From contig CALCCH010000227.1 in assembly GCA_937899855.1 (NCBI GenBank), forward strand, positions 1 through 35,491: a stretch of DNA of 35,491 nt. Reading direction: 5' to 3'. A program made the position numbers and the translations under genes. Within the stretch, counting starts at the first letter, position 1, and the number at the start of each line of letters is the position of its first letter. The notes under the pieces are model-generated. The model had not been told where the DNA came from and did not search any database. It saw only the letters and a list, made by a program, of their open reading frames with translations. Source of the stretch: an uncultured Saprospirales bacterium (GTDB lineage: Bacteria > Bacteroidota > Bacteroidia > Chitinophagales > Saprospiraceae). Below are positions 610 to 35,246 of this stretch, one piece after another.

Positions 610-867
610 ATGTTGAAAGTAGAAGTCATGAACCTCAGCCCCGGACGGATTGTCCTGCGTTTTTACCTGATGATGGCCGTCGTCCTCCTCGCCGGCTTTA
701 CGGGAATCTGGTTACTGGGTTTGTTGGCCCTGCCCATCTTCCTAAGCGCCATCCTGGCGGTCAAAGTCCGTTTGCCCATCACCAAGACCGCCAAGCGGGT
801 CCCATTGGAGCGCCAACGCGAGGCGGCGCGTCCCCAAGCCAGTACACCGCCTAGCGTACGCGCCTAG
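610..867 (+). CDS. Small two-helix membrane protein, hypothetical
   Basis: This 85-residue frame starts at 610; a second ATG at 628 is possible. Residues 14-52 form two hydrophobic segments separated by only a few residues, so a membrane hairpin is likely. The C-terminal 30 residues are basic and Arg/Pro-rich and probably cytoplasmic. It ends with TAG, 9 bases before the stop codon of the convergent hydrolase gene. No family is recognised. A 348-base open frame overlaps it in another phase (507-854), but that frame is Arg/Pro/His-rich and has no sensible protein features. The clear hydrophobic pattern favours this frame. Confidence 0.5.
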   Translation: MLKVEVMNLSPGRIVLRFYLMMAVVLLAGFTGIWLLGLLALPIFLSAILAVKVRLPITKTAKRVPLERQREAARPQASTPPSVRA

Positions 868-2411: not shown

Positions 2412-3458
2412 TCAGCCGGGCAGGTCTTCCAATTGCTGCTGCCGGAGCAGGTGGATGGCGCCACCTTCCACGGCGATGAGCCCCTCCGTCTTAAAATCGG
2501 ACAGGGTGCGAATAACGGATTCCTTGGCGGTACCCACCAGGGCGGCCAAATCCTCGCGCCGGATGCGGATGGGCGCCGCCGCTTCCCCCCGTTGGGCCAG
2601 CCGGAGCAGGGCTTCCGCCACCCGTTTGCGGATTGAGTCGTAGGCCAGGCTGAGTAAGCGTTGTTCTTTTTCTACGACGTTGCCCGCCAGGAGTTTGATG
2701 AATTTGGCGGCCAAATCCCGGTCCCGGTAGAGCAGGTCCAGAAAGTCCGCTTTGGGAATGAGGCGGACCCGAGTCGGCTCCGTGGCGACTGCGGATTCGG
2801 CGTAAGGCTTGTCCCGCAGGAGGGCCTCGTAGCCCAGAAAATCGCCCGCGCGGTAGAGTTGGTTGATGTATTCCTTGCCCCACTCGTTGCTACAGAAGGT
2901 CTTGATTTGTCCCGTTTCGATCAGGAAGAGGTAGCGCGCCGTATCGTCTTCCTGGAACAGAAAATCCTTCTTGCCGTAGTGTCGTTCCTCGCGATTGGCG
3001 GACAGAGCGGCGAGAGCTGCTTCGCCCTTTCCCTCCCGGGCAAAGGCCGACCAGGTGCCTTCGGCGGTGGGCTGGTCCCGCTGCTGGCGTTCGCTTTTTT
3101 TTAAGCGCATCTCGATGGCGTCGAGCAGTTCGACGTCGTCGAAGGGTTTGGTGAGGTAATCGTCGGCGCCGAGGTTCATACCCTTGCGAAAATCGACCCG
3201 TTCGGCCTTGGCGGTGAGGAAGATAAAGGGGATGTCGCTGGTCTCGGGCTTTTTTTCCAGGATGCGCAGTACGCCAAAGCCATCGAGCTCCGGCATCATG
3301 ACGTCACAGAGAATCAAATCGGGGGGGCTTTGTAGGGCTTTTCCCACCCCCACTTTGCCATTTTCGGCGGTCTCCACTTCGTAGTCGGATAGCTCTAGCA
3401 GTTCCGCGAGGTTCTCGCGGACCTCGGTATTGTCTTCGATGATGAGGATTCTTTTCAT
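2412..3458 (-). CDS. Response regulator fused to CRP/FNR-type transcription factor
   Basis: This 348-residue protein joins a receiver domain to a CRP/FNR regulator. The receiver (1-122) has the acidic pair Glu8/Asp9, phospho-acceptor Asp52, Thr82 and Lys104. A cyclic-nucleotide-binding-type beta roll follows (about 155-245), then a CRP-type winged helix (about 275-340). The recognition helix KESVIRTL keeps the Glu and Arg that contact the TGA core in CRP/FNR proteins. The FNR iron-sulfur cysteine cluster is absent, so direct oxygen sensing through Fe-S is unlikely. In this respect it resembles FixK. Its start codon overlaps the kinase stop codon (ATGA, 3455-3458), so the two are translated together and are surely cognate. 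It probably activates targets when phosphorylated. Confidence 0.9.
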   Translation of the reverse strand: MKRILIIEDNTEVRENLAELLELSDYEVETAENGKVGVGKALQSPPDLILCDVMMPELDGFGVLRILEKKPETSDIPFIFLTAKAERVDFRKGMNLGADDYLTKPFDDVELLDAIEMRLKKSERQQRDQPTAEGTWSAFAREGKGEAALAALSANREERHYGKKDFLFQEDDTARYLFLIETGQIKTFCSNEWGKEYINQLYRAGDFLGYEALLRDKPYAESAVATEPTRVRLIPKADFLDLLYRDRDLAAKFIKLLAGNVVEKEQRLLSLAYDSIRKRVAEALLRLAQRGEAAAPIRIRREDLAALVGTAKESVIRTLSDFKTEGLIAVEGGAIHLLRQQQLEDLPG

Positions 3459-4738
3459 GGGGTCTGATCAATTGGTAGTTGCACTATAAACACCGAACCC
3501 CGCCCCTCGGTGCTGCGAAACGTTATTTTTCCCCCCATCATTTCTACGTAACCCCTCACGATGTGCAAACCCCCCCCGGTACCCTGAATGTTGCTGACGT
3601 TGGTGGCGCGGAAAAAGCGGCCAAAGAGGTGCTCCTGATCCCGTTGGGGGATGCCCATCCCCTCGTCGCGAACCTCGAAGCGGAGTAGCTTTTCCTCCGG
3701 AGTGCAGCGGTAGTAAATCGACTGATGGTCCGCGGAATATTTGCTGGCGTTGGAGAGTAGGTTAAACAGGATGTGCTTGAGCAGGCGAGGATCCAGGTGG
3801 ACCTCCAGGTTGCTCGGAGGGGGCTGGTAAACGATGCGCTGGCCCGGCAGGAGGAGGACCAGCATTTCTTCGATGACTTCCCGGTTGAAGCCGTCTACCG
3901 AAAAGCGCTCCGCTTGCTGGGCCAGTTTGCCTTCTTCCAATTTACTGAGGGAGAGAAAATCGTTGAGAATATCGGTGAGCAAGCCAACGGCGGTCTTGAT
4001 GCGGTCGATGTGTTTTTGTCGCTTGTCCTGCTGGTCGCTGCTGGGGTAGCGCCCCACCAGGGCGGCCGAGGACAGGATGGTGCTCAGGGGGGTGCGAAAC
4101 TCGTGCGAGGCCATCGAGACGAAGCGGGACTTGAGTTCGCTCAGTTCTTTTTCCTTTTCTAGGGCCTGGCGGGTTTCCCGTTCGGACTGGCGCAGGGCAT
4201 TTTCGGCGCGTTTGCGTTCGGTGACTTCGTGTTCGAGCTGCTGGTTGGTGCGCAGCAGTTGGTTGACCGTTTCGGAAAGCTCTTCGGTCCGCTTTTGTAC
4301 GATGCGCTCCAGCGACTGGTTGAGCTCGCGAATCTGACTTTCGATCCGCTTTTGTTCGCTCAGGTCGTGGACGATGCCGGTGTAGATCGTTTTGCCCTCC
4401 AGTTGTACTTCCGCCACGCTGAGGTAGAGGGGGAAAACGTCCCCATCCTTGCGTTTGCCCCGCACCTCGCGACCGCTCCCAATAATTTTTTTGCGCCCCG
4501 TCGCTTGGTAGTGCTCCATGTACTCATCGTGTTCGGAATGGTAGGGCTCGGGCATCAGCATATTGATGTTTTGCCCCTGGACCTCTTCGGCGGAGTAGCC
4601 AAACAAACGCGCCGCCGCCGGGTTGATGCTCTCGATCCGGCCCCGCCGATTGATGGTGATGATGCCGTCAATCGCGGTCTCCCAGATCGCCTGGAGGCGA
4701 CGGGCATCTTCGGAGCTGGCGGAGGGCTTGGCATTCAC
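3455..4738 (-). CDS. PAS-domain sensor histidine kinase, FixL-like
   Basis: A soluble 427-residue kinase without membrane segments. It has a PAS domain (14-130), a coiled coil (about 130-200), the phospho-accepting His212 in SHEFRTP, and an ATPase domain with N box NLLSNASKYS, G1 DEGMGIP and G2 GTGGGL (an unusual Gly in place of Leu). The PAS domain carries the FixL-type stretch MLMPEPYHSEHDEY, with His70 where rhizobial FixL has its proximal haem ligand. Arg90 lies 20 residues later, as His200 and Arg220 do in Bradyrhizobium FixL. Two other haem-contact positions differ: His76 for Arg206 and Lys84 for His214. Haem binding is therefore plausible but not shown, because this motif also occurs in PAS domains without haem. 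It is the partner of the overlapping REC-FNR gene. Confidence 0.88.
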   Translation of the reverse strand: MNAKPSASSEDARRLQAIWETAIDGIITINRRGRIESINPAAARLFGYSAEEVQGQNINMLMPEPYHSEHDEYMEHYQATGRKKIIGSGREVRGKRKDGDVFPLYLSVAEVQLEGKTIYTGIVHDLSEQKRIESQIRELNQSLERIVQKRTEELSETVNQLLRTNQQLEHEVTERKRAENALRQSERETRQALEKEKELSELKSRFVSMASHEFRTPLSTILSSAALVGRYPSSDQQDKRQKHIDRIKTAVGLLTDILNDFLSLSKLEEGKLAQQAERFSVDGFNREVIEEMLVLLLPGQRIVYQPPPSNLEVHLDPRLLKHILFNLLSNASKYSADHQSIYYRCTPEEKLLRFEVRDEGMGIPQRDQEHLFGRFFRATNVSNIQGTGGGLHIVRGYVEMMGGKITFRSTEGRGSVFIVQLPIDQTP

Positions 4739-4784: not shown

Positions 4785-4798
4785 TTGATAAAAGTCAC
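4785..4798 (+). promoter_or_regulatory. FNR/FixK-type dyad candidate (TTGAT-N4-GTCAC)
   Basis: TTGATAAAAGTCAC keeps the TGA-N6-TCA core of CRP/FNR sites. The left half is a perfect FNR half-site. It lies in the divergent region between the kinase gene and the CBS/USP operon, 47 bases upstream of the kinase ATG and 94 upstream of the CBS ATG. It could serve either promoter. It shares the pattern TTGAT-N4-GTCA with the site upstream of the cco operon. About nine TGA-N6-TCA matches are expected by chance in a window of this size, so position is the main support. Confidence 0.35.
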
Positions 4799-4892
4799 CG
4801 CGTCGGGTGCGGCAAGTCATTTTTCACCGGTCCTAAAAATAAGAACTTGCTAGTGAAAAGTAATTATTCCTTCACCAATTCATCCGCCAATC

Positions 4893-5327
4893 ATGGATAT
4901 CCTCGCACCCATCTCCAGCATCATGACCACCATCCTGATTACCGTCAACCCGGAGGACAGCCTCTACCAGGCCAAAAAGCTGATGGACCAATACCGGATT
5001 CACCACCTGCCGGTCGTTCGCTATCGGCGCATCGTTGGACTCCTCAGCTACAGCGATCTGCTCTACTTCCTCAAGGGCCTCCGCCACGACCGCACCGAGG
5101 ACCTGATGAACGAAATTCGCCTGAAAAACTACAAAGCCAAAAGCATCATGACCACCGGCTTGGCCAAGGTAGAACCCACCGACCGGATCAACGTGGCGCT
5201 GGAAGTGTTTAAGACCAATCGCTTTCACGCGCTTCCCGTGGTGGCGGACGGCGAGCTGGTGGGGATTCTCACGACCTACGACATCATCGTCGAACTCGCC
5301 AAAACTCAAAATCGCCTTGCCGTATGA
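4893..5327 (+). CDS. Tandem CBS-domain protein
   Basis: A 144-residue protein made almost entirely of a CBS pair (Bateman module). CBS1 is about residues 8-62, with HHLPVV and GLLSYSDLL. CBS2 is about 84-138, with FHALPVV and GILTTYDII. Such modules bind adenine nucleotides and sense energy state; as stand-alone proteins they act by binding partners. It is the first gene of a five-gene run and overlaps the next gene by ATGA (5324-5327), so it is translationally coupled to a USP gene. A second CBS gene closes the same operon. The start is the first ATG; an alternative in-frame one is at 4923, within CBS1. Confidence 0.88.
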   Translation: MDILAPISSIMTTILITVNPEDSLYQAKKLMDQYRIHHLPVVRYRRIVGLLSYSDLLYFLKGLRHDRTEDLMNEIRLKNYKAKSIMTTGLAKVEPTDRINVALEVFKTNRFHALPVVADGELVGILTTYDIIVELAKTQNRLAV

Positions 5328-6445
5328 AAGCCATTCAATCTATCCAGATCGTCGGAATCAAAGGGGACCAGACCTACGAACGGTGGAAAGCCAAGGTACT
5401 GCAAGCCCTCCAGGAGCTCTATCTCCCCCTGGAATTGGAGGAGATCAACCAGGTAAAAGCCATCGTCAAGACTGGCCTGGGCGCCATTCCGGCACTCTTG
5501 GTAGATGGACGGGTCCTGATCGAACGGGGTCCGAACCAATTGGAAGCGGACAATATCGTGGCCAGCCTGCACCAGTACTTGGAGACGGGTTGGCCCGAGG
5601 GTAAAAAAATCATCGTGCCCACCGATTTTTCCCGGGCCTCCCGCAATGCCTACGCCTACGCTTCCGACCTGGTGGCGGAGTGGGGGGGAGAGCTGCAACT
5701 GCTCCACGTTTGTCATCCCGGTACCGAGTCGATCGACGGCCTGCCGCTGTTGGCGGTGGAGGACTTGATTCGGGATCGGGAGGAAGAATTGGCTCGTTTT
5801 CAGCTCGATGAGGCGGGGGCCAGTATGAAGCAAACGGTGGTGGACAGCTTGGTCGACCGCGAAGTGGTGGTGGGCCTGGCCAGTGATGAGCTGATCCAAC
5901 GCTCCGCCTCGGCCGCCACGGACCTGATCGTGATGGCTACGCGGGGCAAGGGCAATGTCTTGGACCACGCCTTCGGCAGCGTATCCAGCCGGGTCTCTCA
6001 AGGGGGCCACTGCCCGGTCTGGTTGGTGCCCCCCCGGGCGCGTTACCGGGGCATTCGCAACATCCTCTACGCCAGCAACTACACCTCGGCCGACGAACGA
6101 ATGGTGCAGAAAATACTCCGCCTGGCCCAACCCTTTGGGGCCGACGTACACCTCGTACAGGTCAACGACAACAGCGATGGCAACCAACAGGAAATGGACG
6201 AGTTGGCCATTGATCGCCTGTTTGCCCAAACCACTTTTCAAAATACCCTCTACCTCAGTACCATCCGGCACAATCGCATCTGGGAAGGCCTCAATGGCTA
6301 CGCTCAGGAAAACGATATCGACCTGATTGTACTGGTGACCCGCCACCGCAATTTCTGGCAGGGGCTACTCCACCGCAGCATCACCAAACAGATGGTATTC
6401 CACGCCAAGTTGCCCCTACTGGTCCTCCACCTGGACGATCAATAA
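5324..6445 (+). CDS. Tandem universal stress protein with N-terminal thioredoxin-like domain
   Basis: This 373-residue protein has three parts. Residues 5-88 resemble the small thioredoxin-like proteins of the Thioredoxin_3 type: beta strand, helix, beta strand, then AIPALLVDG with a cis-proline position at Pro56, then a short strand and helix. The domain has no cysteine at all; the place of the CxxC is taken by GIKGDQTY. Residues 94-235 are a USP domain with A205-T-R-G208, nine residues, then G218-S219, a good ATP loop except for Ala in place of the first Gly. Residues 250-370 are a second, degenerate USP domain without the loop. The gene overlaps the CBS gene upstream. The thioredoxin-like assignment rests on fold pattern only. 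Confidence 0.8.
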   Translation: MKAIQSIQIVGIKGDQTYERWKAKVLQALQELYLPLELEEINQVKAIVKTGLGAIPALLVDGRVLIERGPNQLEADNIVASLHQYLETGWPEGKKIIVPTDFSRASRNAYAYASDLVAEWGGELQLLHVCHPGTESIDGLPLLAVEDLIRDREEELARFQLDEAGASMKQTVVDSLVDREVVVGLASDELIQRSASAATDLIVMATRGKGNVLDHAFGSVSSRVSQGGHCPVWLVPPRARYRGIRNILYASNYTSADERMVQKILRLAQPFGADVHLVQVNDNSDGNQQEMDELAIDRLFAQTTFQNTLYLSTIRHNRIWEGLNGYAQENDIDLIVLVTRHRNFWQGLLHRSITKQMVFHAKLPLLVLHLDDQ

Positions 6446-6469: not shown

Positions 6470-7321
6470 ATGAAAAAGACCATTCTCGTTCCCATCGATT
6501 TTTCCCCCAGTGCCCAAAACGCCCTGCATTACGCCCTGGCCTGGGCCGTCGAGCTGGAGGCCCGCTTGGAAGTCCTGCACGTATACGGGGGTACGTTTAG
6601 CTTGGAGGAAATGCCTGCCTTCCAACTGGGGCAGGGCCGGGAGGAAGCCCTGCTACAACGCCTCACCGAGTTCAGTCAAATCCCCGCGGGAGTACCCGGG
6701 GCCAACTTGGTGCTGAGCCGGCAACTGCGTCTGCATCCCACCGTGGCCGATGCGATCGTGGAACGTTCCAAAGAAATGGCGGCGGATTACATCGTCATGG
6801 GCACCAAAGGGAGCCACGACCCGTTCGAACGCTGGTTGGGGAGCGTTTCCTCGACGGTCGCCCAACGCGCCCGCTGTCCGGTTTTCCTCATCCCCAAGCC
6901 CTCCCGATTCCAAGGATTTAAGCATTTGCTCTACGCCAGCAATTTTGAGTCGGTGTCTCCCCCACTGATTGACCAGATCAGCGCCTGGGCGCAGCGGTAT
7001 CAGGCCAAGGTCCACTTTATTCACGTCGACGACATTCCCGGGCGTCCGGCGGAGGAATTCGCTACGCTGGAAGACGAGCTCTACCAACGGCTTTTTAAAA
7101 ATGGTGATCCCCCCTTCCCGCTCAACCTGGCTACGGTGCGGGCGTCCAGCGTGAGTAAGGGCCTGCGCCAGTACGCCAGCGAGAACGACATCGATCTACT
7201 GATCCTGGTCAACCGGCAACGGCAATTTTGGGACAACGTACTCGGCGAAAGCCTGACCAAGGATATGGCCCTGGGTACCACCGTTCCCCTGCTCGTCCTT
7301 GATTACGACACCCCCCAATGA
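6470..7321 (+). CDS. Tandem universal stress protein
   Basis: A 283-residue protein with two USP domains. The first (1-143) begins with the usual KTILVPIDFS and has a complete ATP-binding loop G111-T-K-G114, nine residues, G124-S125. The second (about 150-283) keeps the fold (LLYASNFES at its start, VPLLVLDYD at its end) but has lost the loop. The second domain shares the pattern NRQRQFWDN with its operon neighbours, where RQR/RHR precedes an aromatic residue, so the domain is conserved among these paralogues. It starts 24 bases after the previous stop and overlaps the next gene by ATGA. Confidence 0.88.
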   Translation: MKKTILVPIDFSPSAQNALHYALAWAVELEARLEVLHVYGGTFSLEEMPAFQLGQGREEALLQRLTEFSQIPAGVPGANLVLSRQLRLHPTVADAIVERSKEMAADYIVMGTKGSHDPFERWLGSVSSTVAQRARCPVFLIPKPSRFQGFKHLLYASNFESVSPPLIDQISAWAQRYQAKVHFIHVDDIPGRPAEEFATLEDELYQRLFKNGDPPFPLNLATVRASSVSKGLRQYASENDIDLLILVNRQRQFWDNVLGESLTKDMALGTTVPLLVLDYDTPQ

Positions 7322-8136
7322 GTACCGCCATGAAAATCATCGTTGTACCGACCGACTTTTCCGATGTTGCCCGCTGTGCGCTACACAGTGCGGCCCAGTT
7401 GGCCAATCACTTTGGGGCGCGCATCCACTTGGTGCACTTTTACCAGGTTCACAGTCGGGCGGGGATGTTGATGAGTATCCGCAATTTTATGCAGCGCGCT
7501 GCGGAAGAAAATTTAGCGGTGGAGGTGGCGGCGGTACGGACGGACCTCAAGGAGCGTACGAGCTTGGTGACCCGAGCGTTGGAAGCCGGGGTAATTGATG
7601 GGATCGTGGCCTACGCGGGTGCCCTGCACGCCGATTTGATCGTGATGGGGACCCAGGGCGCCAACCGCTTCCCCGACATTTTTCTGGGCACCATGGCCAC
7701 GGCAACCATCCGTCGGAGTAGCCTACCGGTGCTGGTCGTACCCCCGCAGTGGACCTACCGGCCCCCGACCCGCTTGGGGCTCGCCGTCGAAAATCAAGTG
7801 AAGTACGAAACCGACCAACACACGACCCTCAACGCACTCGCAGCCGCCTACCAAGGCCAAGTGGAGCTCCTCCACGTCGACGCTCCCGGCCGACCGGCCG
7901 CCGTCCTTGATCCGGCCTACGAGATCGTCCTGGGGCAGTACCTGCACCGCACCCACCGACTGGCGGAGGCGGACCTCCACCGCGGCCTGCAACAGATGGT
8001 TGAAGAACCGGGGATTGACCTGCTGGTCATGATTCGTCGCCAACGCAGTTTTCTCGAACGGCTGTTTCAAGGGAGCCGAACCCTCCGGGAAGTTTTTTCC
8101 AGTAGCGTTCCCCTGCTGATTTTGCCCGAAGCCTAA
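7318..8136 (+). CDS. Tandem universal stress protein
   Basis: A 272-residue protein with two USP domains. Domain one has the ATP loop G111-T-Q-G114, nine residues, G124-T125. The second domain lacks it but ends with the paralogue signature RRQRSFLERLF and VPLLILPEA. The start at 7318 overlaps the stop of the preceding gene by four bases; the internal ATG at 7330 (MKIIVVPTDFS) fits the usual USP start better and may be used as well or instead. Together with its two upstream neighbours it makes a set of divergent paralogues that probably arose by tandem duplication. Confidence 0.87.
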   Translation: MSTAMKIIVVPTDFSDVARCALHSAAQLANHFGARIHLVHFYQVHSRAGMLMSIRNFMQRAAEENLAVEVAAVRTDLKERTSLVTRALEAGVIDGIVAYAGALHADLIVMGTQGANRFPDIFLGTMATATIRRSSLPVLVVPPQWTYRPPTRLGLAVENQVKYETDQHTTLNALAAAYQGQVELLHVDAPGRPAAVLDPAYEIVLGQYLHRTHRLAEADLHRGLQQMVEEPGIDLLVMIRRQRSFLERLFQGSRTLREVFSSSVPLLILPEA

Positions 8137-8170: not shown

Positions 8171-8599
8171 ATGAAACGCGATACGCCACTGTCGGAACTG
8201 ATGACCACCAACCTGGTGACCCTCCGCGCTCGCGATACCCTCGCCACGGCCGAGGACTTGTTTGAGGCCCACGCCTTTCACCACCTCCCCGTGGTGGATG
8301 AGCAGGGGCACCTGCTGGGCATCATCAGCAAATCGGACCTCTACCTGCTGTCCGACCGGATGACCCTCTTCCGAGCGGAGGCAAATCCCGATCACAACGA
8401 TCGGTTTTTCCGCAGCCTCTTTGCCGAAGAAGTCATGGTGCGTCAGGTCGTCCACCTGGCCCCCACGGCTACCCTGGAGGCCGCCGCGGCTCTGTTTCGC
8501 CAAAATAAATTTCACGCCCTCCCGATCGTCGATGCCACCGGTCGCCTCCGCGGCTTGGTGACGACCTTTGACCTACTGGAGTTGGCGTACCCCGACTGA
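8171..8599 (+). CDS. Tandem CBS-domain protein
   Basis: A 142-residue Bateman module, a relative of the protein encoded at 4893. CBS1 starts with LSELMTTNLVTL and contains FHHLPVVDEQG and GIISKSDLYLL. CBS2 contains EVMVRQVV, FHALPIVD and GLVTTFDLLEL. The gene starts 34 bases after the last USP gene. A strong terminator follows 48 bases after its stop, so it closes the operon. The symmetrical order CBS-USP-USP-USP-CBS suggests that both kinds of protein respond to adenine nucleotides in one process. Confidence 0.88.
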   Translation: MKRDTPLSELMTTNLVTLRARDTLATAEDLFEAHAFHHLPVVDEQGHLLGIISKSDLYLLSDRMTLFRAEANPDHNDRFFRSLFAEEVMVRQVVHLAPTATLEAAAALFRQNKFHALPIVDATGRLRGLVTTFDLLELAYPD

Positions 8600-8682: not shown

Positions 8683-9537
8683 TTAGGAGCTTGCTGAAGT
8701 TTCCGGCACCACGATGGACAAGACCGGAATTTGGGCGTGGTTGACGAGGGCTTCGACGTTGCTGCCTACGAGCAATCGCTTGAGGGGATGTTGGTACTGA
8801 TTGGAGATGCCGATCAACTGGGCGTCGATGCTGGTGGACAGGTTGCGGATGCCGGCATCCACGCTCCAATCGCGGAAAAAGTGCTGGTGGCAGACGAAGC
8901 CTTCGGCGGCGGCTTCGAAGTCGTTCATGGCGTCGCGGACCAGCACGCGGGGTTGGCTAAACCAACTGGCGGTATCGATCTGAACCAGGTGGATTTCGGG
9001 TTGGAAGGGGCGCAACAGGTCGAGGAGGTAGTGGAAGGCGGGCATTTCGTGGGCGTCAAAATTGGAGGTGAAGATGACCCGCCGTAAGACGTAGTCGCTG
9101 ATGTCTTCCTTGATGATGAGTACGGAGTGGCGCAGGGTGCGGACCACCTTCTGGGTATTGGAACCGATCAGGTAATCCCGTTTGCCACTGGCCCCGTGGG
9201 AGCCCATCACCACAAAGTCGATGCCTTGCTTGGCCACGTAGTTTTCGATCAGGGGTAGGAGGGGCCCCGTGGCCCAGTGGGTCCGCAGCTCGACGCCCCG
9301 TTGCTGGGCGCGGCTCTGCCATTCGGCGAGCAGTACTTGGGCATTGTGGATGCGCTGTTCCCGCTCGGGGTTGACCGGGCTCGAAGCCGAGGCGAGGGGG
9401 GAGGGCCAGTGGCTGGGCGTCTCGATACGGGTGAGCAAGTGCAGGCGCCCGCGGAAGCGTTCGGCCAGGTCCAGGGCGACCTGGGTAGCATTGTTGGCGC
9501 AGGCGGAAAAATCGGTGGGTACGAGGATTTCTTTCAT
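8683..9537 (-). CDS. Tandem universal stress protein
   Basis: A 284-residue protein on the opposite strand to the operon. The first USP domain (1-145) begins KEILVPTDFS and has a full ATP loop G112-S-H-G115, nine residues, G125-S126. The second domain (about 153-284) is degenerate but keeps a loop-like HPLKRLLVGSN and ends IPVLSIV. It is less like the three operon copies in its second domain, which lacks their RQR signature. A terminator-like hairpin ends 17 bases upstream of its ATG (9555-9576), which is odd for a leader and may limit its expression to readthrough or attenuation. Confidence 0.87.
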   Translation of the reverse strand: MKEILVPTDFSACANNATQVALDLAERFRGRLHLLTRIETPSHWPSPLASASSPVNPEREQRIHNAQVLLAEWQSRAQQRGVELRTHWATGPLLPLIENYVAKQGIDFVVMGSHGASGKRDYLIGSNTQKVVRTLRHSVLIIKEDISDYVLRRVIFTSNFDAHEMPAFHYLLDLLRPFQPEIHLVQIDTASWFSQPRVLVRDAMNDFEAAAEGFVCHQHFFRDWSVDAGIRNLSTSIDAQLIGISNQYQHPLKRLLVGSNVEALVNHAQIPVLSIVVPETSASS

Positions 9538-9898: not shown

Positions 9899-9912
9899 CT
9901 GATGCGAATCAG
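9899..9912 (+). promoter_or_regulatory. FNR-like palindrome CTGAT-GCGA-ATCAG
   Basis: A perfect palindrome in both five-base arms that differs from the FNR consensus TTGAT-N4-ATCAA only in its outermost bases. It sits 110 bases upstream of the USP gene at 10023. A box CTAATTTG follows at 9956-9963; the dyad centre is then roughly 63 bases before the presumed transcription start, close to a class-I activator position. It is nested at the left end of a longer inverted repeat, AAATCACT (9893-9900) with AGTGATTT (9920-9927). Assignment is inference. Confidence 0.35.
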
Positions 9913-10022
9913 AGGGAGAAGTGATTTTGGTCAGCGGAAAGCGGGGGAGAAAGTGCTAATTTGGAGTAGTTCAGCAAGCGCAATACACGCGCGGAACGGA
10001 TTCCTAACTTAATACAGATACA

Positions 10023-10802
10023 ATGACCAGTACGGCAAAAAGCAAGAAGATTTTATTTCCCACCGACTTTTCGGACGCGGCTCAAAACGCCTTTGAATAC
10101 ACCCTGCAATTGGCAGCGGAATGGGGCGCCACCGTCGAGTTGTTGCACGTGGTTTATCCCCAACTGGAAGCCTTGGATTACCCGGTGTTCGTCTCGCGGG
10201 CTACCCAAGAATTGGTGGACACCAGTCGGGAGGTCTTACAGTCCTTTATCGCCAAAGGCCAGGCCGCAGTCCAGGGCCGTCTGGCGGGCGAGGTGGACCT
10301 ACTTACCGACATCGAAGTGGGCCTGCCCGAGCGCTCAATCGTGGAGGTGGCGCGGCGCGACAGCATTGATTTGATCGTGATGGGAAGTCGGGGTGAGAAT
10401 CGCACCTTGGTGGAAAAGTGGCTGGGCAGTACTTCACTGGGGGTGATTGAAAAAGCCCACTGTCCGGTGATGGTCATTCCCCTGCGGGCGGCTTACGAAA
10501 AACTGCGTCGGATTGCCTACGCCACCGATGGCCACGCCGCCGATGCCTTCGAAATCTGGGAAAGCCTCCAACTGTTCAAAGCCGGGCCCCAGGTCTGCAT
10601 CGACCTGGTCCACGTCAATACCAAGCCCCGAGGAGACGACCAGGCCTGGAAAAGGATGGAACAGGTCGCGGAGTTTCTACGCAGCCAGACCAATGCCCCC
10701 CAAGTCGAGCTACACCACCTGGCGGGTCGCAGCATCGCCGAAGCCCTCAACACCTACGTCGGTACCCATCCGGTCGATTGCTTGGTGATGTACCGGGCCT
10801 AG
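10023..10802 (+). CDS. Tandem universal stress protein, shortened by a TAG
   Basis: A USP of 259 residues up to TAG at 10800-10802. Domain one (about 8-150) has G121-S-R-G124, ten residues (one more than usual), then G135-S136. The second domain stops at VMYRA. The same frame continues for another 30 codons after the TAG and ends in TGA at 10893-10895. The continuation, HDGGDRRFRQSQTRRMAWKT then QVPLLIQKEN, matches the end of the other USPs here (Thr-Arg/Lys, Met-Ala, VPLL). A CAG to TAG change at a position where the paralogues carry Gln or Arg explains this. The last strand and helix of domain two are therefore lost unless the stop is read through. The gap to the convergent gene is only four bases after the TGA. 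Confidence 0.82.
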   Translation: MTSTAKSKKILFPTDFSDAAQNAFEYTLQLAAEWGATVELLHVVYPQLEALDYPVFVSRATQELVDTSREVLQSFIAKGQAAVQGRLAGEVDLLTDIEVGLPERSIVEVARRDSIDLIVMGSRGENRTLVEKWLGSTSLGVIEKAHCPVMVIPLRAAYEKLRRIAYATDGHAADAFEIWESLQLFKAGPQVCIDLVHVNTKPRGDDQAWKRMEQVAEFLRSQTNAPQVELHHLAGRSIAEALNTYVGTHPVDCLVMYRA

Positions 10803-22582: not shown

Positions 22583-23239
22583 TTACTCCACCAAGCCATG
22601 GAGAATGGCGAACTTGATGAGGCCCACGACCTTGTTGACTCCCAGCTTTTTCATGATGTTGTTGCGGTGGGAATCCACCGTACGGGCGCTGATGTAAAGC
22701 CGTTGCCCAATCTCCCTACTCGAATAGCCCTCGGCAATCGCCCGCAAGACTTCGATCTCCCGCTCGGTGAGCGTACTCAGCTGGGCGCTGGGCGACTCGT
22801 TGGTGCTGGCGACGGCGGAGCCATCGTTGGGGCTGTTGAGGGCGATCGTCACGGCGCTGGAGAAATAGCGCTTTCCACCGGCCACGCTTTGTATGGCAAA
22901 AATGACTTCCGCCTTGTCCGAGTCCTTCACCAGGTAGCCATCCACCCCGATCTGGAGCAAATGCCGGATGATCGATTGCTCAAAATGTAGGGAGAGCATG
23001 ATGATTTTAAGCGCTGGGAAATCCCGTCGCAATTCTTGGGCCGCTACCATTCCATTCATCACGGGCATGTCGATATCCATCAGGACCAGCTCGGGCTGGA
23101 GGATGCGGACGGCGCGAATGGCTTCCCGGCCGTTTTTGGCCTGCCCGACAATGTCGAAATGAGGGTGGAGAAAGGCTTCGAGGCCGTCGAGAACGACCTG
23201 GTGGTCATCGACCAGGAGGACTTTGGTGTTGGTTTTCAT
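22583..23239 (-). CDS. NarL/FixJ-type response regulator
   Basis: A 218-residue regulator starting at the ATG at 23239 (MKTNTKVLLVDD). The frame is open further upstream, but that part overlaps the kinase gene and has no protein character. The receiver (1-125) has Asp11/Asp12, phospho-acceptor Asp55 in LMDIDMP, and a Lys after strand five (YLVKDSD). The LuxR-type helix-turn-helix is at about 150-215: LTEREIEVLRAIAEGYSSRE, then SARTVDSHRNNIMKKLGV. It follows the TPR-kinase gene by 25 bases and is its obvious partner. The targets are unknown; the convergent receptor gene ends 12 bases away. Confidence 0.92.
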   Translation of the reverse strand: MKTNTKVLLVDDHQVVLDGLEAFLHPHFDIVGQAKNGREAIRAVRILQPELVLMDIDMPVMNGMVAAQELRRDFPALKIIMLSLHFEQSIIRHLLQIGVDGYLVKDSDKAEVIFAIQSVAGGKRYFSSAVTIALNSPNDGSAVASTNESPSAQLSTLTEREIEVLRAIAEGYSSREIGQRLYISARTVDSHRNNIMKKLGVNKVVGLIKFAILHGLVE

Positions 23240-23264
23240 ACGGTGCTGCTTGTCGTTTATTGTT

Positions 23265-25115
23265 TTACAATGGGCCGCTTTCCTGCCCATTTGGGGGAGC
23301 TGCCGCCCGGAGCGGGATGCGGAGGTTGACGACCGTACCCCGCCCCGGTTCGCTGCTAAAATCGACCCGACCATCCAGGGCCCGGACCCGCGAATTGATG
23401 TTGAGCATGCCCTGACTGTGGGGATCCACCTCATCGGGGGCAAACCCCCGTCCGTTATCCTCCACCACGACCACCAACTGATCCTCCCGCCGCAACAACT
23501 GCAAGTCGACCTCCGTGGCCTCGGCGTGTTTGAGAATGTTGTTGAGCAGCTCTTGTAAAATCCGGTAGACGTTGATTTCCACCACTTCGGGTAGGCTCCG
23601 GTCGAGGCGGTGTTGTTGCCATTCAACCTGGATACCACTGTTGCGAAAACTGGTGGCGAGTAAGTCTTCGAGGGCCGCTACGAGTCCCAGCTCGCTCAGG
23701 GCCCGTGGCATCATCCGGTGCGACAGCTCGCGCACCTCCCGGGCGGTACCATCGAGGACTTGGCCCAGGTCCCGCAGTTCCCGACGGGCTTGGGGCCGTT
23801 GGGGGTTTAGCCCGTCCTCCAGGTGCTGCCAGGCCATTTTTAAGCCCGTGAGCTGTTGGCCAATCCCGTCGTGGAGGTCCTTGGCGATGCGTTTGCGTTC
23901 GCGCTCCTGTACATCGAGCGTATTCTGCAGCAATTCCCTTTGGAAGCGCAGTTGTTTTTCGCGGAGTTGGCTGCGTTGTTGGTGGCGGTAGTTCAAAAAG
24001 GCCAGGGCCCCCAGCAGGGCCAGTACCAATAGGGCGGCCAGGGCCAGGGCGAGGCGGGGCCGGTACTGCTGTTGGCGCAGGGCCATTTCCTCCTGTTGCC
24101 AGGCAATCTGTCGTTCTTTTTGCTCGGTTTCGTACTGGGTCTCCATCTTGGCCAACTCGGCGATTCGCTCGGCGGACAGGAGGCTATCCTGGAGGGCGTA
24201 GCTCTGCCGGAGGTAGTCCAGGGCGCGCTCGGTTTCCCCTAATTTGGCGTAGGACTTGGAGGCGTATTCGAGGTTCCAGCGGCTCAGGTCGAGGTAGGCG
24301 AGGCGGCGCGATTGCTGTAGGCTGCGCTCGAAATGTTCGGCGGCTTGGCGGTACTGCCCCCGTTGGAAGTACAGCTCGCCCATATTGGTGATGTTGATGG
24401 TCTGACCCACGGTATCGCCCAGCGACTGCCGGATCAGGGTAGAGGCTTCTACCCACTGAATGGCCCGTTCGAAGTCGCCCCGGACGGCAGCGACTTCGCC
24501 GAGGTTGTTGTAGACGTAGCCCAGGCCGACGGAATCGCCGATGCGTTGGCGGATGTCCAGGGCCCGGAGGTAGTTGGTCTCCGCTTCTTCCCAGCGTTGG
24601 AGTTTGCTCAGTACGATGCCGCGGTTGTCGTAGCTGGTGCTCAGTCCGGTGGAGTCGCCGCCGCGGCGGCAGTATTCGGCCGAGCGATCGAGGTAGTCGA
24701 GGGCCCGTTCGCGGTCGTTTTGTTTGCTGACCAGAATGGCCATTTCGTTGTAGCAGCGGCCGAGGCCGGCCCAATCTTCCTGGCTTTCGTAGCGTTGGAG
24801 GGCCATTTGGTAGTGTTCGAGGGCGCGGGGCAGGTCGCCGGCGTAGTAGTGGGCGATGCCGAGGGCGACGTTGATGGCGGCTTCGCCACTCCAGAGCTGG
24901 CGGTCGCGGAGGAGGGTCCGGGCGGTTTCGAGTAGGGGGATGCGTTCTTCCAGGGGAAGGTTTTGGGCGTATTGCTGGACGCGTTGGGCTTTTTCGTAAG
25001 CGCTGCCGCCCGTGAGGAGTTGTTCGAGGACCGCATTGGGGGGCGCTTGGCCAAAGACCGGGAGCAGATACAGCAGTAGCCCCAAAGTACTCAGATACTT
25101 GGAAATCGATAACAT
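23265..25115 (-). CDS. TPR-containing sensor histidine kinase, NarX/DegS-like
   Basis: A 616-residue membrane kinase. A signal peptide (1-23, ending FGQ) places residues 24-352 in the periplasm, where about seven TPR-like repeats occur between 80 and 310 (pattern LGxxYxxxGDxxxALxxxxxAL). A short coiled coil follows, then a transmembrane helix (355-375), and a HisKA_3 domain with phospho-acceptor His415 in RIAKDLHDGIGQQL. The ATPase domain has the N-box-like NILKHAEAT, G1 EDNGRGF and G2 GMLNINSR. This layout is common in Bacteroidota. The signal is unknown; it partners the NarL-type regulator downstream. Confidence 0.92.
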   Translation of the reverse strand: MLSISKYLSTLGLLLYLLPVFGQAPPNAVLEQLLTGGSAYEKAQRVQQYAQNLPLEERIPLLETARTLLRDRQLWSGEAAINVALGIAHYYAGDLPRALEHYQMALQRYESQEDWAGLGRCYNEMAILVSKQNDRERALDYLDRSAEYCRRGGDSTGLSTSYDNRGIVLSKLQRWEEAETNYLRALDIRQRIGDSVGLGYVYNNLGEVAAVRGDFERAIQWVEASTLIRQSLGDTVGQTINITNMGELYFQRGQYRQAAEHFERSLQQSRRLAYLDLSRWNLEYASKSYAKLGETERALDYLRQSYALQDSLLSAERIAELAKMETQYETEQKERQIAWQQEEMALRQQQYRPRLALALAALLVLALLGALAFLNYRHQQRSQLREKQLRFQRELLQNTLDVQERERKRIAKDLHDGIGQQLTGLKMAWQHLEDGLNPQRPQARRELRDLGQVLDGTAREVRELSHRMMPRALSELGLVAALEDLLATSFRNSGIQVEWQQHRLDRSLPEVVEINVYRILQELLNNILKHAEATEVDLQLLRREDQLVVVVEDNGRGFAPDEVDPHSQGMLNINSRVRALDGRVDFSSEPGRGTVVNLRIPLRAAAPPNGQESGPL

Positions 25116-28985: not shown

Positions 28986-29684
28986 CTAGTGGCAGAGGAT
29001 GGGAAAGGCGGTTTCGAGGGTAAACCGCAGGTTGAGGGGCAGTTCGACATTGAGGCCGCGGGCGATGAGGAGGACGCCCATTAGGAGGAGGCTGAGGGGG
29101 TAAATGCGCTGGAGGTAGGGGCGCCAGCTATGGCCCAGGCGTTTGCCGATTAGGGAGGCGCCGAGCATCATGGGGAGGGTCCCGAGGCCAAAGCAAGCCA
29201 TGTAGAGCATGGCGTGGAGGATACCCTCCTGGCTGACCGCTCCGGCCAGGGCGAGGTAAACGAGTCCGCAGGGTAGGAAGCCGTTGAGCAAGCCCACGCC
29301 GAGAAAGCGCAGGGGGTGATTGGAGCGGAGGAGTTGCCCCAGGTTTTGCTGAATCCAGTTTTGCCAGGGGAGGCCAGTTTGGCTCCGGGTGCTGCTCCGC
29401 CAGGACCGTCCGCTTAGTAGCCCGGCCAGGAGTAGGACGATGCCCAGCGTCAGTGCGAGCCCTTTTTGGTAACCTGCGAGTAGGAAACCCAGGCCCAGCA
29501 TCCCGGGTAGGATACCGATCAGGGCGTAGCTGCCGATGCGGCCCAGTTGGTAGCTGACGATGTAAAAGTAGCTCTGCCAGGGGCGGTGACCCCGGTAGGG
29601 CAGCAGCAGGGCGATGGGGCCACACATGCCTACGCAGTGTAGGCTACCCAGGAGGCCGAGGCTAAAGGCGGTCCACAGTCCCAT
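28986..29684 (-). CDS. TauE/SafE-type membrane protein of the cco cluster
   Basis: A 232-residue protein with about six membrane helices. The first helix carries GSLHCVGMCGPIALLLP, a conserved Cys/His motif of this group (also called the sulfite exporter or DsbD_2-like family). The middle has LNGFLPCGLVYLALAGA. The gene follows ccoH with one base between, as in many Bacteroidota cbb3 clusters, and the motif suggests a role in handling copper for oxidase assembly. That role is inferred from position and the Cys/His motif. The C-terminus (PILCH) holds one more Cys-His pair. The stop is TAG. Confidence 0.82.
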   Translation of the reverse strand: MGLWTAFSLGLLGSLHCVGMCGPIALLLPYRGHRPWQSYFYIVSYQLGRIGSYALIGILPGMLGLGFLLAGYQKGLALTLGIVLLLAGLLSGRSWRSSTRSQTGLPWQNWIQQNLGQLLRSNHPLRFLGVGLLNGFLPCGLVYLALAGAVSQEGILHAMLYMACFGLGTLPMMLGASLIGKRLGHSWRPYLQRIYPLSLLLMGVLLIARGLNVELPLNLRFTLETAFPILCH

Positions 29685-29685
29685 C

Positions 29686-30123
29686 TTACAAGCTCAGTTC
29701 GTTTTCCTGGAAATAGGCCACGCCCCGACTTTCCCAATCGACGCGCACCCGCCAGTAGCCGGATTGGATTCGGGCGGTGGGGATCAGCATCTGCCCCCGG
29801 TCGTCGATACGGATGGGGTAACTCAGGTCCTGCCGGTGATCCGAAGGCCGGTAGAGGAGCACTTCCCCCCGCAGCGATTCGGGGGTCTCGAATTGGAGGC
29901 GCAGTTGCTGAGACTCGGGGAGTTGGTCGACGCGGAGTTGGTTCTGGTTCAGCTGACCGTTTTGACGCTTCTGGCGGAAGGTTTCGTAGTCCAGGTCGTG
30001 TTGGTAGTAATTGTCCTGCACCAGTTCGATGTCGATCTGGGTGGAGCGAACGGCCATGCTGACCATGGCGATGACGAAGGCGGTATAAAACAGGGCGATA
30101 CCCGTTCCCCAGTGGAATTTCAT
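29686..30123 (-). CDS. ccoH: FixH/CcoH cbb3 oxidase assembly protein
   Basis: A 145-residue protein with one N-terminal membrane helix (about 6-27, GTGIALFYTAFVIAMVSMA) and a periplasmic domain. The sequence VQDNYYQHDLDYE after the helix and the beta-rich remainder match FixH. The family helps assembly of cbb3 oxidase, probably through CcoI-dependent copper delivery. It lies 11 bases after ccoG. Confidence 0.87.
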   Translation of the reverse strand: MKFHWGTGIALFYTAFVIAMVSMAVRSTQIDIELVQDNYYQHDLDYETFRQKRQNGQLNQNQLRVDQLPESQQLRLQFETPESLRGEVLLYRPSDHRQDLSYPIRIDDRGQMLIPTARIQSGYWRVRVDWESRGVAYFQENELSL

Positions 30124-30134
30124 GTGCGTCGTAT

Positions 30135-31610
30135 TTAGTGAGCCGGTCCCAAAAAGTTGGTTTTGACTCGGTCAATTAATTGCCCCCCGGCGTACACCTC
30201 GATGGCCAGTCTGGTCTTTCGGCCGGTCAGTTGGGCGCGGGGGAGGATGATGAAAAAGGCCCCTTCGGAGAGTTCCTGCTTGGGGATGTCGGGAATGTTT
30301 CCCACCAGTTCGATCCGACCGTAGTCCGCTTGTAGCCGGAGCTCCAGGTCTTGGATGGTCAGGTTGGTCTTATTGATGAGTTGGTAGTTGTACAAATTGC
30401 TCAGGTGTTGTTCGTCCACCTCTTGGTACAACATACCCGGCGTTCGCAAAATCAGGGTTTCGACTTCGCTGCGGGTGCTAAAGAGAAGCACCTGAAAAAC
30501 GAGCAGCAAGCCCAGAACCACGCTGTAGTCCAGCTCGCGGGGGGTAACTATTTTCTGTTGTCCTTTTTTGATTCCATGCTCCGAGTCTTGCCGAATCAAA
30601 CCCTCGGCGCGATTGATTTTGCGCCTCACCCCATCGCAAGCGTCCATACACGCCGTACAGTTGACGCATTCCAACTGGGTACCGTTGCGGATGTCGATGC
30701 CCGTGGGGCACACCTGTACGCAGAGCCGGCAGTCGACGCAGTCGCCCAGTTTGGGCACCGAGATGACGTCGCTAGCGGTGTACCCGTCGCTGTAAGGAAT
30801 GGTCGCCCCCGCCAGCGCAGCGGGCCGTGGGGCCCGGCGTTTTTTCTTCATTTTCCCCCGCGGCTCCCCCCGTACCCAATCGTAAATGACCACGATGGAA
30901 TCCTTGACCAACAGGACATCTTGCAAACGCCCGTAAGGACAAACCGCCAGGCAGACCTGCTCGCGAAAGAAGGCAAAGACCCCGTAAAACAAACCCGAGA
31001 AAACGAGCATGGCGACGAAGCCGCCCAGGTGTTGGTGAATCGGTTCGCTGATGATTTTACCCACCTCGTCCACCCCGATGAGGTAGGAGAGAAAGGCATG
31101 GACGATGAGGACAGCGATGGCGAAAAAGAGAAAATGCTTGAGTGCTTTTTTTCGCACCTTGGTAGCCGTCCAGGGGCCCCGATTGAGTCGTCGCTGCTGG
31201 TTGGCATCCCCTTCGATCCAGTATTCGATCTTGCGAAAGACCATTTCCATAAAGATGGTCTGCGGGCAAACCCAACCACAAAACAAGCGACCAAAGACCA
31301 CGGTAAACAGCACGACGAAGAGCATCAGGGTGATCATCGCCAGGGCAAACAGGTGGAGGTCCTGGGGGGTAAAGACGATGCCAAAGATGATGAAGCGTCC
31401 TTCCAGCACGTTGAACAGCAGGATGGGGTCTCCGTGAACTTTGACGAAGGGTAACCCAAAGAGTAGCAGCAGCAAAAAGTAGCTCAGGTAGCTGCGCCAG
31501 CGGTAGAATTTGCCACTCGGTTTTTTGGGGTACAGCCACACCCGGCTGCCACTCCCATCGACGGTGGAGAGGTGATCGCGGTACGTTTCGTGCGGTGGGA
31601 GTTGGCTCAT
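30135..31610 (-). CDS. ccoG: CcoG, cbb3 oxidase accessory iron-sulfur protein
   Basis: A 491-residue membrane ferredoxin with five or more helices. Cysteines occur as C111-GWV-C115 and C220-LAV-C224 in the membrane part. Two 4Fe-4S motifs follow: C291-x2-C294-x2-C297-x3-C301-P and C315-x2-C318-x2-C321-x3-C325. The C-terminal 100 residues form an Ig-like domain (FixG_C type). CcoG/RdxA-type proteins are proposed to reduce Cu(II) for cbb3 assembly. It follows ccoP by 13 bases and belongs to the same transcript. Confidence 0.93.
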   Translation of the reverse strand: MSQLPPHETYRDHLSTVDGSGSRVWLYPKKPSGKFYRWRSYLSYFLLLLLFGLPFVKVHGDPILLFNVLEGRFIIFGIVFTPQDLHLFALAMITLMLFVVLFTVVFGRLFCGWVCPQTIFMEMVFRKIEYWIEGDANQQRRLNRGPWTATKVRKKALKHFLFFAIAVLIVHAFLSYLIGVDEVGKIISEPIHQHLGGFVAMLVFSGLFYGVFAFFREQVCLAVCPYGRLQDVLLVKDSIVVIYDWVRGEPRGKMKKKRRAPRPAALAGATIPYSDGYTASDVISVPKLGDCVDCRLCVQVCPTGIDIRNGTQLECVNCTACMDACDGVRRKINRAEGLIRQDSEHGIKKGQQKIVTPRELDYSVVLGLLLVFQVLLFSTRSEVETLILRTPGMLYQEVDEQHLSNLYNYQLINKTNLTIQDLELRLQADYGRIELVGNIPDIPKQELSEGAFFIILPRAQLTGRKTRLAIEVYAGGQLIDRVKTNFLGPAH

Positions 31611-31623
31611 GGCTGGGGGCGGC

Positions 31624-32559
31624 TTACTGTTCTTTGAGTTTCATGCCCAGGACTTTGCTTTCTTCCTCGTGGTCGGGCGTGGTTCGTTCTTCCGCTTGGT
31701 AGAGTTCCCCCTGAGGGGCTTTGGGGTTGGGGGGGCTGGTGCCACGCAGGCTGAGGACGTAGCTTGCTACTTTGTGGATGTCGGTGGGGCGCATGTAGCT
31801 TTTCCACGCAATCATCCCCCTCTCGGGTACTCCGTATTTGATGGTCTTAAAAACGTCTTGGATTCTGCCCCCGTGGAGCCAGTAGTTGTCGGTGAGGTTG
31901 GGGCCTAACGCGCCACCACCTTGGGGGGCGTGACAGGCGGCGCAGTAATCCTGGTAAATCTCCTGCCCTTCGGCCAGGGCGATTTCGTCTTGTAGGAGAG
32001 TGACGTTGGTTTCGTCCACCAGGTTGGCTTGGCGGGCGAGGAAGGCGGCTTGGGCCTTTTTGGCGGCCGCTACCTCCTGGGCGTACTGCTCGGAGGAGCT
32101 GGTGGCATGATCCGAAAAGTGCCAGATGCCGATGTAGGTGACGGCGATGACGATGGAGAGGTAAAAGCCGTAGAGCCACCAGGGGGGAAGTCGGTTGTCC
32201 AACTCCCGGATTCCGTCGTAGTGGTGATCGAGCATGATGTCCTGCTCCTGCGCCACGGGAACGGCCCTGGTGAGGGCCCGGCTGAGCCGCGCCCAGATGG
32301 ATTCGCGGTGGAGTTCCTGGACGTTGAGGGATGTTTCGATGCCCTGTTCTTGGTAAAGCTTCAACTCCCGTACCTTGATGATGGTATTGAACAGTCGGAA
32401 CAAAGCGCCGATGGCGAGTACTACCGTGACGACGGTGGCCCCAATCATCCCGCGTTCGGCAAAGTCGACGTAGAAGTTGGGGTCGTAAGCTACGGCCTGA
32501 GTGCTGAACAGCTGGGCCAGGCTGACCAGGCCCAAATTTTTGGGGAGAGACCTATTCAT
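31624..32559 (-). CDS. ccoP: Cytochrome c oxidase cbb3-type, subunit III (CcoP), single haem
   Basis: A 311-residue protein with two membrane segments (about 36-60 and 128-148, the latter in the FixP_N-type PPWWLYGFYLS region) and one cytochrome c domain (about 192-275). The haem motif is C206-A-A-C209-H210. The axial Met is likely Met249 or Met256. Proteobacterial CcoP has two haem-c sites, so this is the shorter form. The C-terminal tail is charged. The start overlaps the ccoQ stop by eight bases (32552-32559). Confidence 0.9.
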   Translation of the reverse strand: MNRSLPKNLGLVSLAQLFSTQAVAYDPNFYVDFAERGMIGATVVTVVLAIGALFRLFNTIIKVRELKLYQEQGIETSLNVQELHRESIWARLSRALTRAVPVAQEQDIMLDHHYDGIRELDNRLPPWWLYGFYLSIVIAVTYIGIWHFSDHATSSSEQYAQEVAAAKKAQAAFLARQANLVDETNVTLLQDEIALAEGQEIYQDYCAACHAPQGGGALGPNLTDNYWLHGGRIQDVFKTIKYGVPERGMIAWKSYMRPTDIHKVASYVLSLRGTSPPNPKAPQGELYQAEERTTPDHEEESKVLGMKLKEQ

Positions 32560-32749
32560 GACCAGTGGTTTTTACGGTGGTGGCTACGGGGTCGCGCTCA
32601 AGTGGCAATTGCTCCATGTGTTGGACGTAGCTGCGCGAACTGCGCAGGGCCCAGATGAACACTCCTAAAAAGAAGAGGAAGAAAACCAGGAGCGGGACAA
32701 TAGCCAAATTATGAATGTTTTCTACGGATTGCAACAAGTATTTGTACAT
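32552..32749 (-). CDS. ccoQ: CcoQ-like small cbb3 oxidase subunit
   Basis: A 65-residue protein with one membrane helix (about 15-36, IVPLLVFFLFFLGVFIWALR), followed by a charged tail, between ccoNO and ccoP. Size, topology and place match CcoQ, which stabilises the oxidase; sequence similarity in such short proteins is weak. It starts 18 bases after ccoNO and overlaps ccoP. Confidence 0.82.
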   Translation of the reverse strand: MYKYLLQSVENIHNLAIVPLLVFFLFFLGVFIWALRSSRSYVQHMEQLPLERDPVATTVKTTGHE

Positions 32750-32767
32750 GAGGAATTGGTTGTGGGT

Positions 32768-34909: not shown

Positions 34910-35016
34910 TCAAAAGTTTGACGAGGAGTGGAGGAATTGGTGAGCTTGGCGAAGCTTAGCATGGCCGAAAAGGCCAGGATAAAAGCGAGGTAAAAGCAAA
35001 TCTGTACAAAAATCAT
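34906..35016 (-). CDS. 36-residue membrane microprotein between ccoS and ccoNO
   Basis: The frame starts with ATG at 35016, overlapping the ccoS stop by ATGA, and ends with TGA at 34906-34908, overlapping the ccoNO start by ATGA. Both junctions are typical of translational coupling. The product begins MIFVQICFYLAFILAFSAML and ends in a short polar tail with KLTNSSTPRQTFE: one membrane helix and a tail. Size and topology resemble CcoM, the 36-37-residue extra subunit of Pseudomonas stutzeri cbb3, but no sequence relation is claimed. Without this frame ccoS and ccoNO would be separated by more than 100 bases, which is unlike the rest of this tight operon. Confidence 0.62.
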   Translation of the reverse strand: MIFVQICFYLAFILAFSAMLSFAKLTNSSTPRQTFE

Positions 35017-35171
35017 TTCGAGTTGGTTTGTTGTGACTCCTCGAAAAGAATGCGTACCGCCGGCGCGTAGTCGTCGTCGTACTGGCCATCGCGAATGGCC
35101 CAGAAGAAGGCGACCAAAAAGCCCAGGGCAAGCAATAAACTGAGTATGATAAGGAGTACAATGATGAGCAT
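35013..35171 (-). CDS. ccoS: CcoS, cbb3 oxidase maturation protein
   Basis: A 52-residue protein from the ATG at 35171 (MLIIVLLIILSLL) with one helix (2-24) and the CcoS signature FFWAIRDGQYDDDYAPAVRI. CcoS is needed for insertion of cofactors into the oxidase. An upstream in-frame ATG (35219) would add 16 residues from the promoter region and is rejected. It overlaps the microprotein gene by four bases and is the first gene after the promoter region at 35190-35232. Confidence 0.9.
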   Translation of the reverse strand: MLIIVLLIILSLLLALGFLVAFFWAIRDGQYDDDYAPAVRILFEESQQTNSK

Positions 35172-35189
35172 TGGTGTATTATTTATTCG

Positions 35190-35232
35190 CAAATTAGAGG
35201 ATGTGCCGCCGCTCCACAATGACCCCCATCAA
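35190..35232 (-). promoter_or_regulatory. cco operon promoter with FNR/FixK-type dyad
   Basis: On the minus strand TTGATGGGGGTCAT (35232-35219) has a perfect left FNR half-site and the TGA-N6-TCA core. A TTG (35219-35217) follows, then 19 bases, then CTAATTTG (35197-35190), close to the Bacteroidota -7 box. With a start about six bases further on, the dyad centre is near -41.5, the class-II activator position of FNR and FixK. The ccoS ATG is at 35171. The sequences are seen; their function is inferred. Confidence 0.45.
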
Positions 35233-35246
35233 AGGGGAGGGTGATT

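Follow-up and report, generated by a model that had tools for sequence, protein, structure and literature searches.

Oxygen control of high-affinity respiration is poorly described in Bacteroidota compared with proteobacteria. DosS/DosT-DosR consists of a haem kinase with a GAF haem domain and a response regulator of the NarL type. In Mycobacterium tuberculosis its hypoxia regulon is rich in USP genes (PMC2914252). The NmpR hypoxia regulon of Myxococcus xanthus, which has been characterised by experiment, includes CBS, USP, Cu-ATPase, cbb3 and HemN genes (PMC11841059). FixL-FixJ-FixK of rhizobia and hFixL-FxkR-FixK (PMC7888657) each comprise a haem-PAS kinase, a response regulator and a CRP/FNR-type factor.

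We analysed a window of 35,491 nucleotides. It is one of the 807 contigs of a draft assembly from Bacteroidota, which totals 6.77 Mb. Its minus strand carries a sensor kinase of 427 aa (3455-4738), with a PAS domain (aa 14-126), a long coiled-coil linker, HisKA with His212 and HATPase_c with Asn330. Downstream of it is a response regulator of 348 aa (2412-3458, minus strand), in which Pfam recognised a receiver joined to CRP/FNR effector and winged-helix domains. The kinase stop and the regulator start overlap by 4 nt (ATGA, 3455-3458, minus strand), which suggests translational coupling. Divergent from the kinase, on the plus strand, Pfam identified a CBS-domain gene (4893-5327), three USP genes (5324-6445, 6470-7321 and 7318-8136) and a second CBS gene (8171-8599). 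Two further USP genes follow at 8683-9537 (minus strand) and 10023-10802 (plus strand), also by Pfam. A cbb3 cluster (the ccoI 3′ end, ccoS, a ccoNO fusion, ccoP, ccoG, ccoH and a DsbD-like gene; about 28986-35491, minus strand) lies some 25 kb from the pair, outside their operon, and is truncated by the window end. The first-pass annotation had reported the overlapping genes and the cco operon, and both were recovered. No paralogues of the pair were found in the host genome. At 22583-25115 (minus strand) there is a separate two-component pair, in which the gene of a TPR-type histidine kinase overlaps that of a LuxR-type response regulator.

The PAS, HisKA and HATPase_c domains of the kinase all exceeded the Pfam gathering scores. 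The best PDB sequence matches of the PAS domain (4361-4699, minus strand) were all FixL, with E values around 1e-31 (1dp6, 9e-32; 1d06, 2.8e-31), followed by the haem PAS of DosP at 1e-19 and by all others at 2e-8 or worse. The domain shared 49% identity with Sinorhizobium FixL and 48% with Bradyrhizobium FixL (BjFixL); both of these are crystallised haem domains, and they are 59% identical to each other. In the alignment, His70 (codon 4529-4531) and Arg90 (codon 4469-4471, both minus strand) correspond to His200 and Arg220 of BjFixL and show the 20-residue spacing expected of a FixL kinase. At full length, the score against the NCBIfam FixL equivalog was 164 bits for a cut-off of 850, and the protein is therefore classed as a FixL-like PAS kinase and not as FixL. 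The haem His was kept in 43 and the O2-gating Arg in 42 of 44 cognate kinases, most of which also had similar residues at the Ile215, Leu236 and Ile238 positions. Conservation also covered the glycines of the pocket and its hydrophobic distal positions, and the phosphotransfer residues were invariant.

Two haem contacts differ from BjFixL (Arg206 is His76 and His214 is Lys84), with smaller pocket differences at Ile218 (Ser88) and Ile238 (Val108). Sinorhizobium FixL (SmFixL) has an Arg where the window kinase has Lys84. An R200H variant of SmFixL, the same change as in His76, retained wild-type haem spectra, and SmFixL variants including R200H had altered signalling energetics and easier autoxidation (PMC10765370). 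Since the two deviant contacts are found or tolerated in SmFixL, they do not disqualify the domain for haem. Both the FixL pocket pattern and the two deviations had been read from the sequence in the first-pass annotation, which also called for a structure prediction with a pocket comparison. The predicted kinase structure had a mean pLDDT of 86, and its PAS fold matched FixL (8js5) at 1.5 Å over 137 columns with 43% identity. Given the FixL-like sequence, the conserved His and Arg, the tolerated contacts and the FixL-like predicted fold, this PAS domain is likely to bind haem. Some cognate kinases (L038, L042-L045) seem to carry the haem-type PAS twice in tandem, judging by two overlapping PAS-region matches within one longer ORF.

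In the regulator, Response_reg (aa 4-116), cNMP_binding (PF00027, aa 158-244) and HTH_Crp_2 (PF13545, aa 278-346) were all above the gathering scores, which places it in the CRP/FNR superfamily; the fusion architecture is easily recognised by domain databases. The receiver (3111-3449, minus strand) has the acidic pair, Asp, Thr and Lys of a response regulator, and Asp9, Asp52, Thr82 and Lys104 were invariant in 109 of 109 relatives. Its score was higher with PhoB/OmpR-type models (95.6 bits) than with FixJ (68.1 bits). The CRP/FNR part (effector fold plus HTH, aa 158-346; 2421-2987, minus strand) contains the recognition helix GTAKESVIRTLSDFK, which retains the Glu and the Arg used by FNR and CRP. 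The protein has just two cysteines, Cys51 and Cys189, so it has no Fe-S cysteine set and lacks the cluster ligands of an FNR, as the earlier reading of a receiver fused to a CRP/FNR module without such cysteines had it. The CRP part was free of cysteines in 68 of 110 relatives, and in the alignment the four cysteines of the Bacteroidota FNR family were replaced by other residues in the fusions. The output domain is CRP/FNR and not the LuxR-type GerE HTH of FixJ (68 bits for an NCBIfam cut-off of 255). FixK is a CRP/FNR protein that likewise lacks Fe-S cysteines but has no receiver, and the fused protein scored 74 bits against its equivalog cut-off of 300. The CRP part matched FixK models weakly, and FixK2 was matched in the PDB. 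The closest relatives of the regulator were from Saprospiraceae (up to 65% identity). A single-sequence structure prediction of the fusion had a pLDDT of 38.5 and was left out of use.

A survey of genomes for such fusions beside FixL-like PAS kinases, proposed in the first-pass annotation, was carried out on 395 genomes sampled across the phylum. Full-length receiver-CRP fusions were present in 56 of them (59 genomes were listed as matches, three of which matched by the receiver only and were excluded). A kinase was located directly upstream of the fusion in 79 of 110 loci, overlapping it in 39, and 31 loci had no homologous kinase in that position. With these frequencies, the combination of a receiver-CRP protein and a kinase is not a chance arrangement. 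CBS and USP genes adjoined the pair in most large loci, often divergently, and cco genes did so in several. The literature covered, which mostly excluded subscription journals, gave no account of such fusions paired with FixL-like kinases in Bacteroidota. Compact and widely conserved in Bacteroidota, the pair is probably a low-oxygen sensor.

An inverted-repeat search detected TGAT-N4-ATCA upstream of the pair in 41 of 99 relatives (1.2 expected). Across the loci of relatives (1.48 Mb) there were 91 pairs of dyads spaced at 22 bp, whereas no other spacing had more than 6. Of the 86 pairs in the larger loci, 77 were intergenic, in DNA of which the intergenic share is 12.9%. The pairs preceded kinase, regulator, CBS, USP and ccoN (ccoS-ccoN) genes, and other dyads in fusion loci were found before hemN/ccoI, hsp20 and dnaJ (the name hemN is based on a radical-SAM match and on the N-terminal sequence). 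The predicted operator, two TGAY-N4-RTCA dyads at a spacing of exactly 22 bp, is new here. Perfect pairs occurred in 38 of the 56 genomes with a fusion and in 13 of the 339 without one. For the whole phylum the odds ratio was 53. Within the class it was 12.7, which is the safer figure because the p-values ignore shared ancestry. A reversed control pattern gave one match in all genomes. Since 18 of the 56 fusion genomes lacked a perfect tandem dyad and 13 fusion-free genomes had one, the link between dyad and fusion is not strict, and the sites could be bound by another CRP/FNR protein. One locus (L141, G007 C2:2518584-2518639) has three successive dyads, each spaced at 22 bp from the next.

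Four tandem pairs with at most one mismatch were found in the host genome, three of them in the window, which makes up 0.5% of the 6.77 Mb. A perfect pair, TGATGCGAATCA-N10-TGATTTTGGTCA (9900-9933), lies 90 nt upstream of the USP gene at 10023-10802. The second perfect pair (35220-35253) is at the junction of ccoI and ccoS, with ccoS and then ccoNO following about 50-80 nt downstream, and relatives have a dyad in the same place. The third, with one mismatch (508-541), is upstream of a small ORF (610-867, plus strand). For the fourth, outside the window (C148:16942), no clear target gene could be assigned. The divergent kinase/CBS promoter has a degenerate tandem dyad, TGATAAAAGTCA-N10-TGCGGCAAGTCA (4786-4819), consisting of a good dyad at 4786 and a poor partner 22 bp on at 4808, in a place that is conserved in relatives. 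Single dyads with one mismatch numbered 25 in the window, against 8 expected. Many were in coding DNA, and they are therefore uninformative alone, the signal being the tandem spacing. The ORF at 610-867 encodes 85 aa, is predicted to be a membrane protein and had no Pfam match; it is a possible new low-oxygen gene.

Genomes with dyads and without the fusion mostly had a stand-alone protein of the FNR type, about 240 aa long. It was about 35-40% identical to the CRP half of the fusion and had a near-identical recognition helix. Its four conserved cysteines (positions 10, 13, 59 and 112 in the G150 protein) probably hold an Fe-S cluster; of the 69 sequences included in the tree, 53 had the full set. 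In two genomes, G273 and G320, the stand-alone gene was located close to ccoN, next to a tandem dyad. The cysteine set of the FNR family found by ccoN and the dyad in these genomes (L167 and L245 in G273 C23; L164 and L248 in G320 C2) is unusual, with an N-terminal CxxC, one cysteine mid-protein and one close to the position of Cys122 in E. coli FNR. Tandem dyads in fusion-free genomes were also seen before nrdD (L244:4671-6794), the NiFe hydrogenase small subunit (L242:2699-3829, by Pfam; L247:3529-4659, by its look-alike N-terminus) and hsp20 (L249:4251-4697).

A quick unrooted tree had the 45 sampled fusions all together on one side of a branch with SH-aLRT support of 99, next to four-cysteine FNRs. 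By sequence, the DNA-binding half of the fusion belongs to the Bacteroidota FNR lineage, with a receiver in place of the cysteine sensor. Across six families the fusion and the four-cysteine FNR were largely mutually exclusive, the tally being 2 with both proteins, 28 with the fusion only, 8 with the FNR only and 3 with neither (p = 7e-5, uncorrected for ancestry). Replacement of the FNR by the fusion is not universal, since in family f5 the two often coexist. We give even odds to a swap of sensors, in which the cysteine (probably Fe-S) N-terminus would have been exchanged for a phospho-receiver and a haem-PAS kinase, with the helix, the 22-bp operator and the low-oxygen regulon retained. If so, the same regulon would answer to a cluster sensor in one set of genomes and to a haem two-component system in another, a clear natural case of a regulon changing its O2 sensor from iron-sulphur to haem and phosphorylation with its DNA code kept.

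We propose that the two proteins form an oxygen circuit. The soluble kinase would bind haem through His70, and O2 on the haem, gated by Arg90, would keep the kinase off. A drop in O2 would lead to autophosphorylation of His212 and transfer of the phosphate to Asp52 of the regulator. The phosphorylated receiver would then allow the attached CRP/FNR module to bind the two dyads. As 22 bp is two helical turns, these are on the same DNA face, and two cooperating dimers would probably be involved. The bound regulator would activate transcription of its own operon, the divergent CBS and USP genes, further USP genes and the cbb3 cluster, together a putative low-oxygen survival regulon. We put the probability of this circuit as a whole, from haem sensing to the dyad-driven regulon, at about 0.7.

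A His at the haem position is also present in related PAS domains without Arg220, so this residue alone is not diagnostic of haem; together with the two altered propionate contacts and the change at Ile218, it would suit a kinase that responds to another small ligand or a redox state and resembles FixL by descent only. We consider such a non-O2 sensor unlikely, as Arg90 is conserved along with the glycines and the distal hydrophobic positions of the pocket, the nearest solved relatives are all haem proteins, SmFixL tolerates the variant contacts and the predicted targets are low-oxygen genes. The kinase may also be a haem sensor of NO or CO. A separate doubt concerns the dyads, which could serve another CRP/FNR protein while the fusion binds elsewhere. 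The 13 fusion-free genomes with dyads point in this direction, and most of those within the class have the four-cysteine FNR, with dyads close to its gene and ccoN in two cases. However, the host genome has kept its dyads without a close stand-alone homologue (the best separate CRP-type match was 28% identical, and in the search for stand-alone FNRs the fusion alone passed), three of its four pairs are in the window that carries the fusion, and dyads sit in the kinase/regulator promoters of relatives. The recognition helices of the two proteins are also nearly alike, and it is quite improbable that the fusion binds elsewhere.

The first-pass annotation had proposed an O2-responsive kinase and a single protein standing in for FixJ and FixK. 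The functional part of this idea is retained: the PAS is FixL-like, the phosphotransfer residues are intact and dyads precede both the pair (degenerate here) and ccoS-ccoN, from which we infer direct action on cco. The FixL resemblance and the FixK matches of the CRP part would also fit a literal rhizobial origin, with a FixJ receiver fused to FixK and transferred along with FixL. That origin is very hard to credit and was dropped, because the CRP half groups with the four-cysteine FNRs of Bacteroidota in the quick unrooted tree and the receiver is best matched by PhoB/OmpR-type models; the fusion family is, moreover, spread through the phylum.

A named sensor, a named regulator, a concrete 22-bp operator and a target list make the proposed O2 circuit directly testable in cultured strains. 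Like the FixL-FixJ-FixK chain, it would act on cbb3 oxidase through FNR-like half-sites. Unlike that chain, it has the receiver and the CRP module in one protein, and therefore no intermediate transcription step. It also differs in a receiver that is not FixJ-like by score, a tandem-dyad operator, the prominence of USP and CBS genes among the targets and a kinase without a predicted membrane part. With the stand-alone Bacteroidota FNR it shares a near-identical recognition helix, the same dyad in many genomes and low-oxygen targets, but that protein has a CxxC, two further cysteines and no receiver, whereas the fusion lacks all four cysteines. Similarly to NmpRSTU of M. xanthus, it would combine a haem-dependent kinase with a hypoxia regulon and self-regulation, but NmpRSTU has a protoglobin sensor, a multi-component phosphorelay and an NtrC-like regulator (PMC11841059). 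The presence of USP, CBS, hemN and chaperone genes beside cco resembles the mycobacterial DosR and myxobacterial NmpR regulons. The sequences give good support to a conserved variant on a familiar type of system and yield a new operator prediction, and the variant most likely operates like FixL-FixJ-FixK minus one step, with a CRP half of the FNR lineage.
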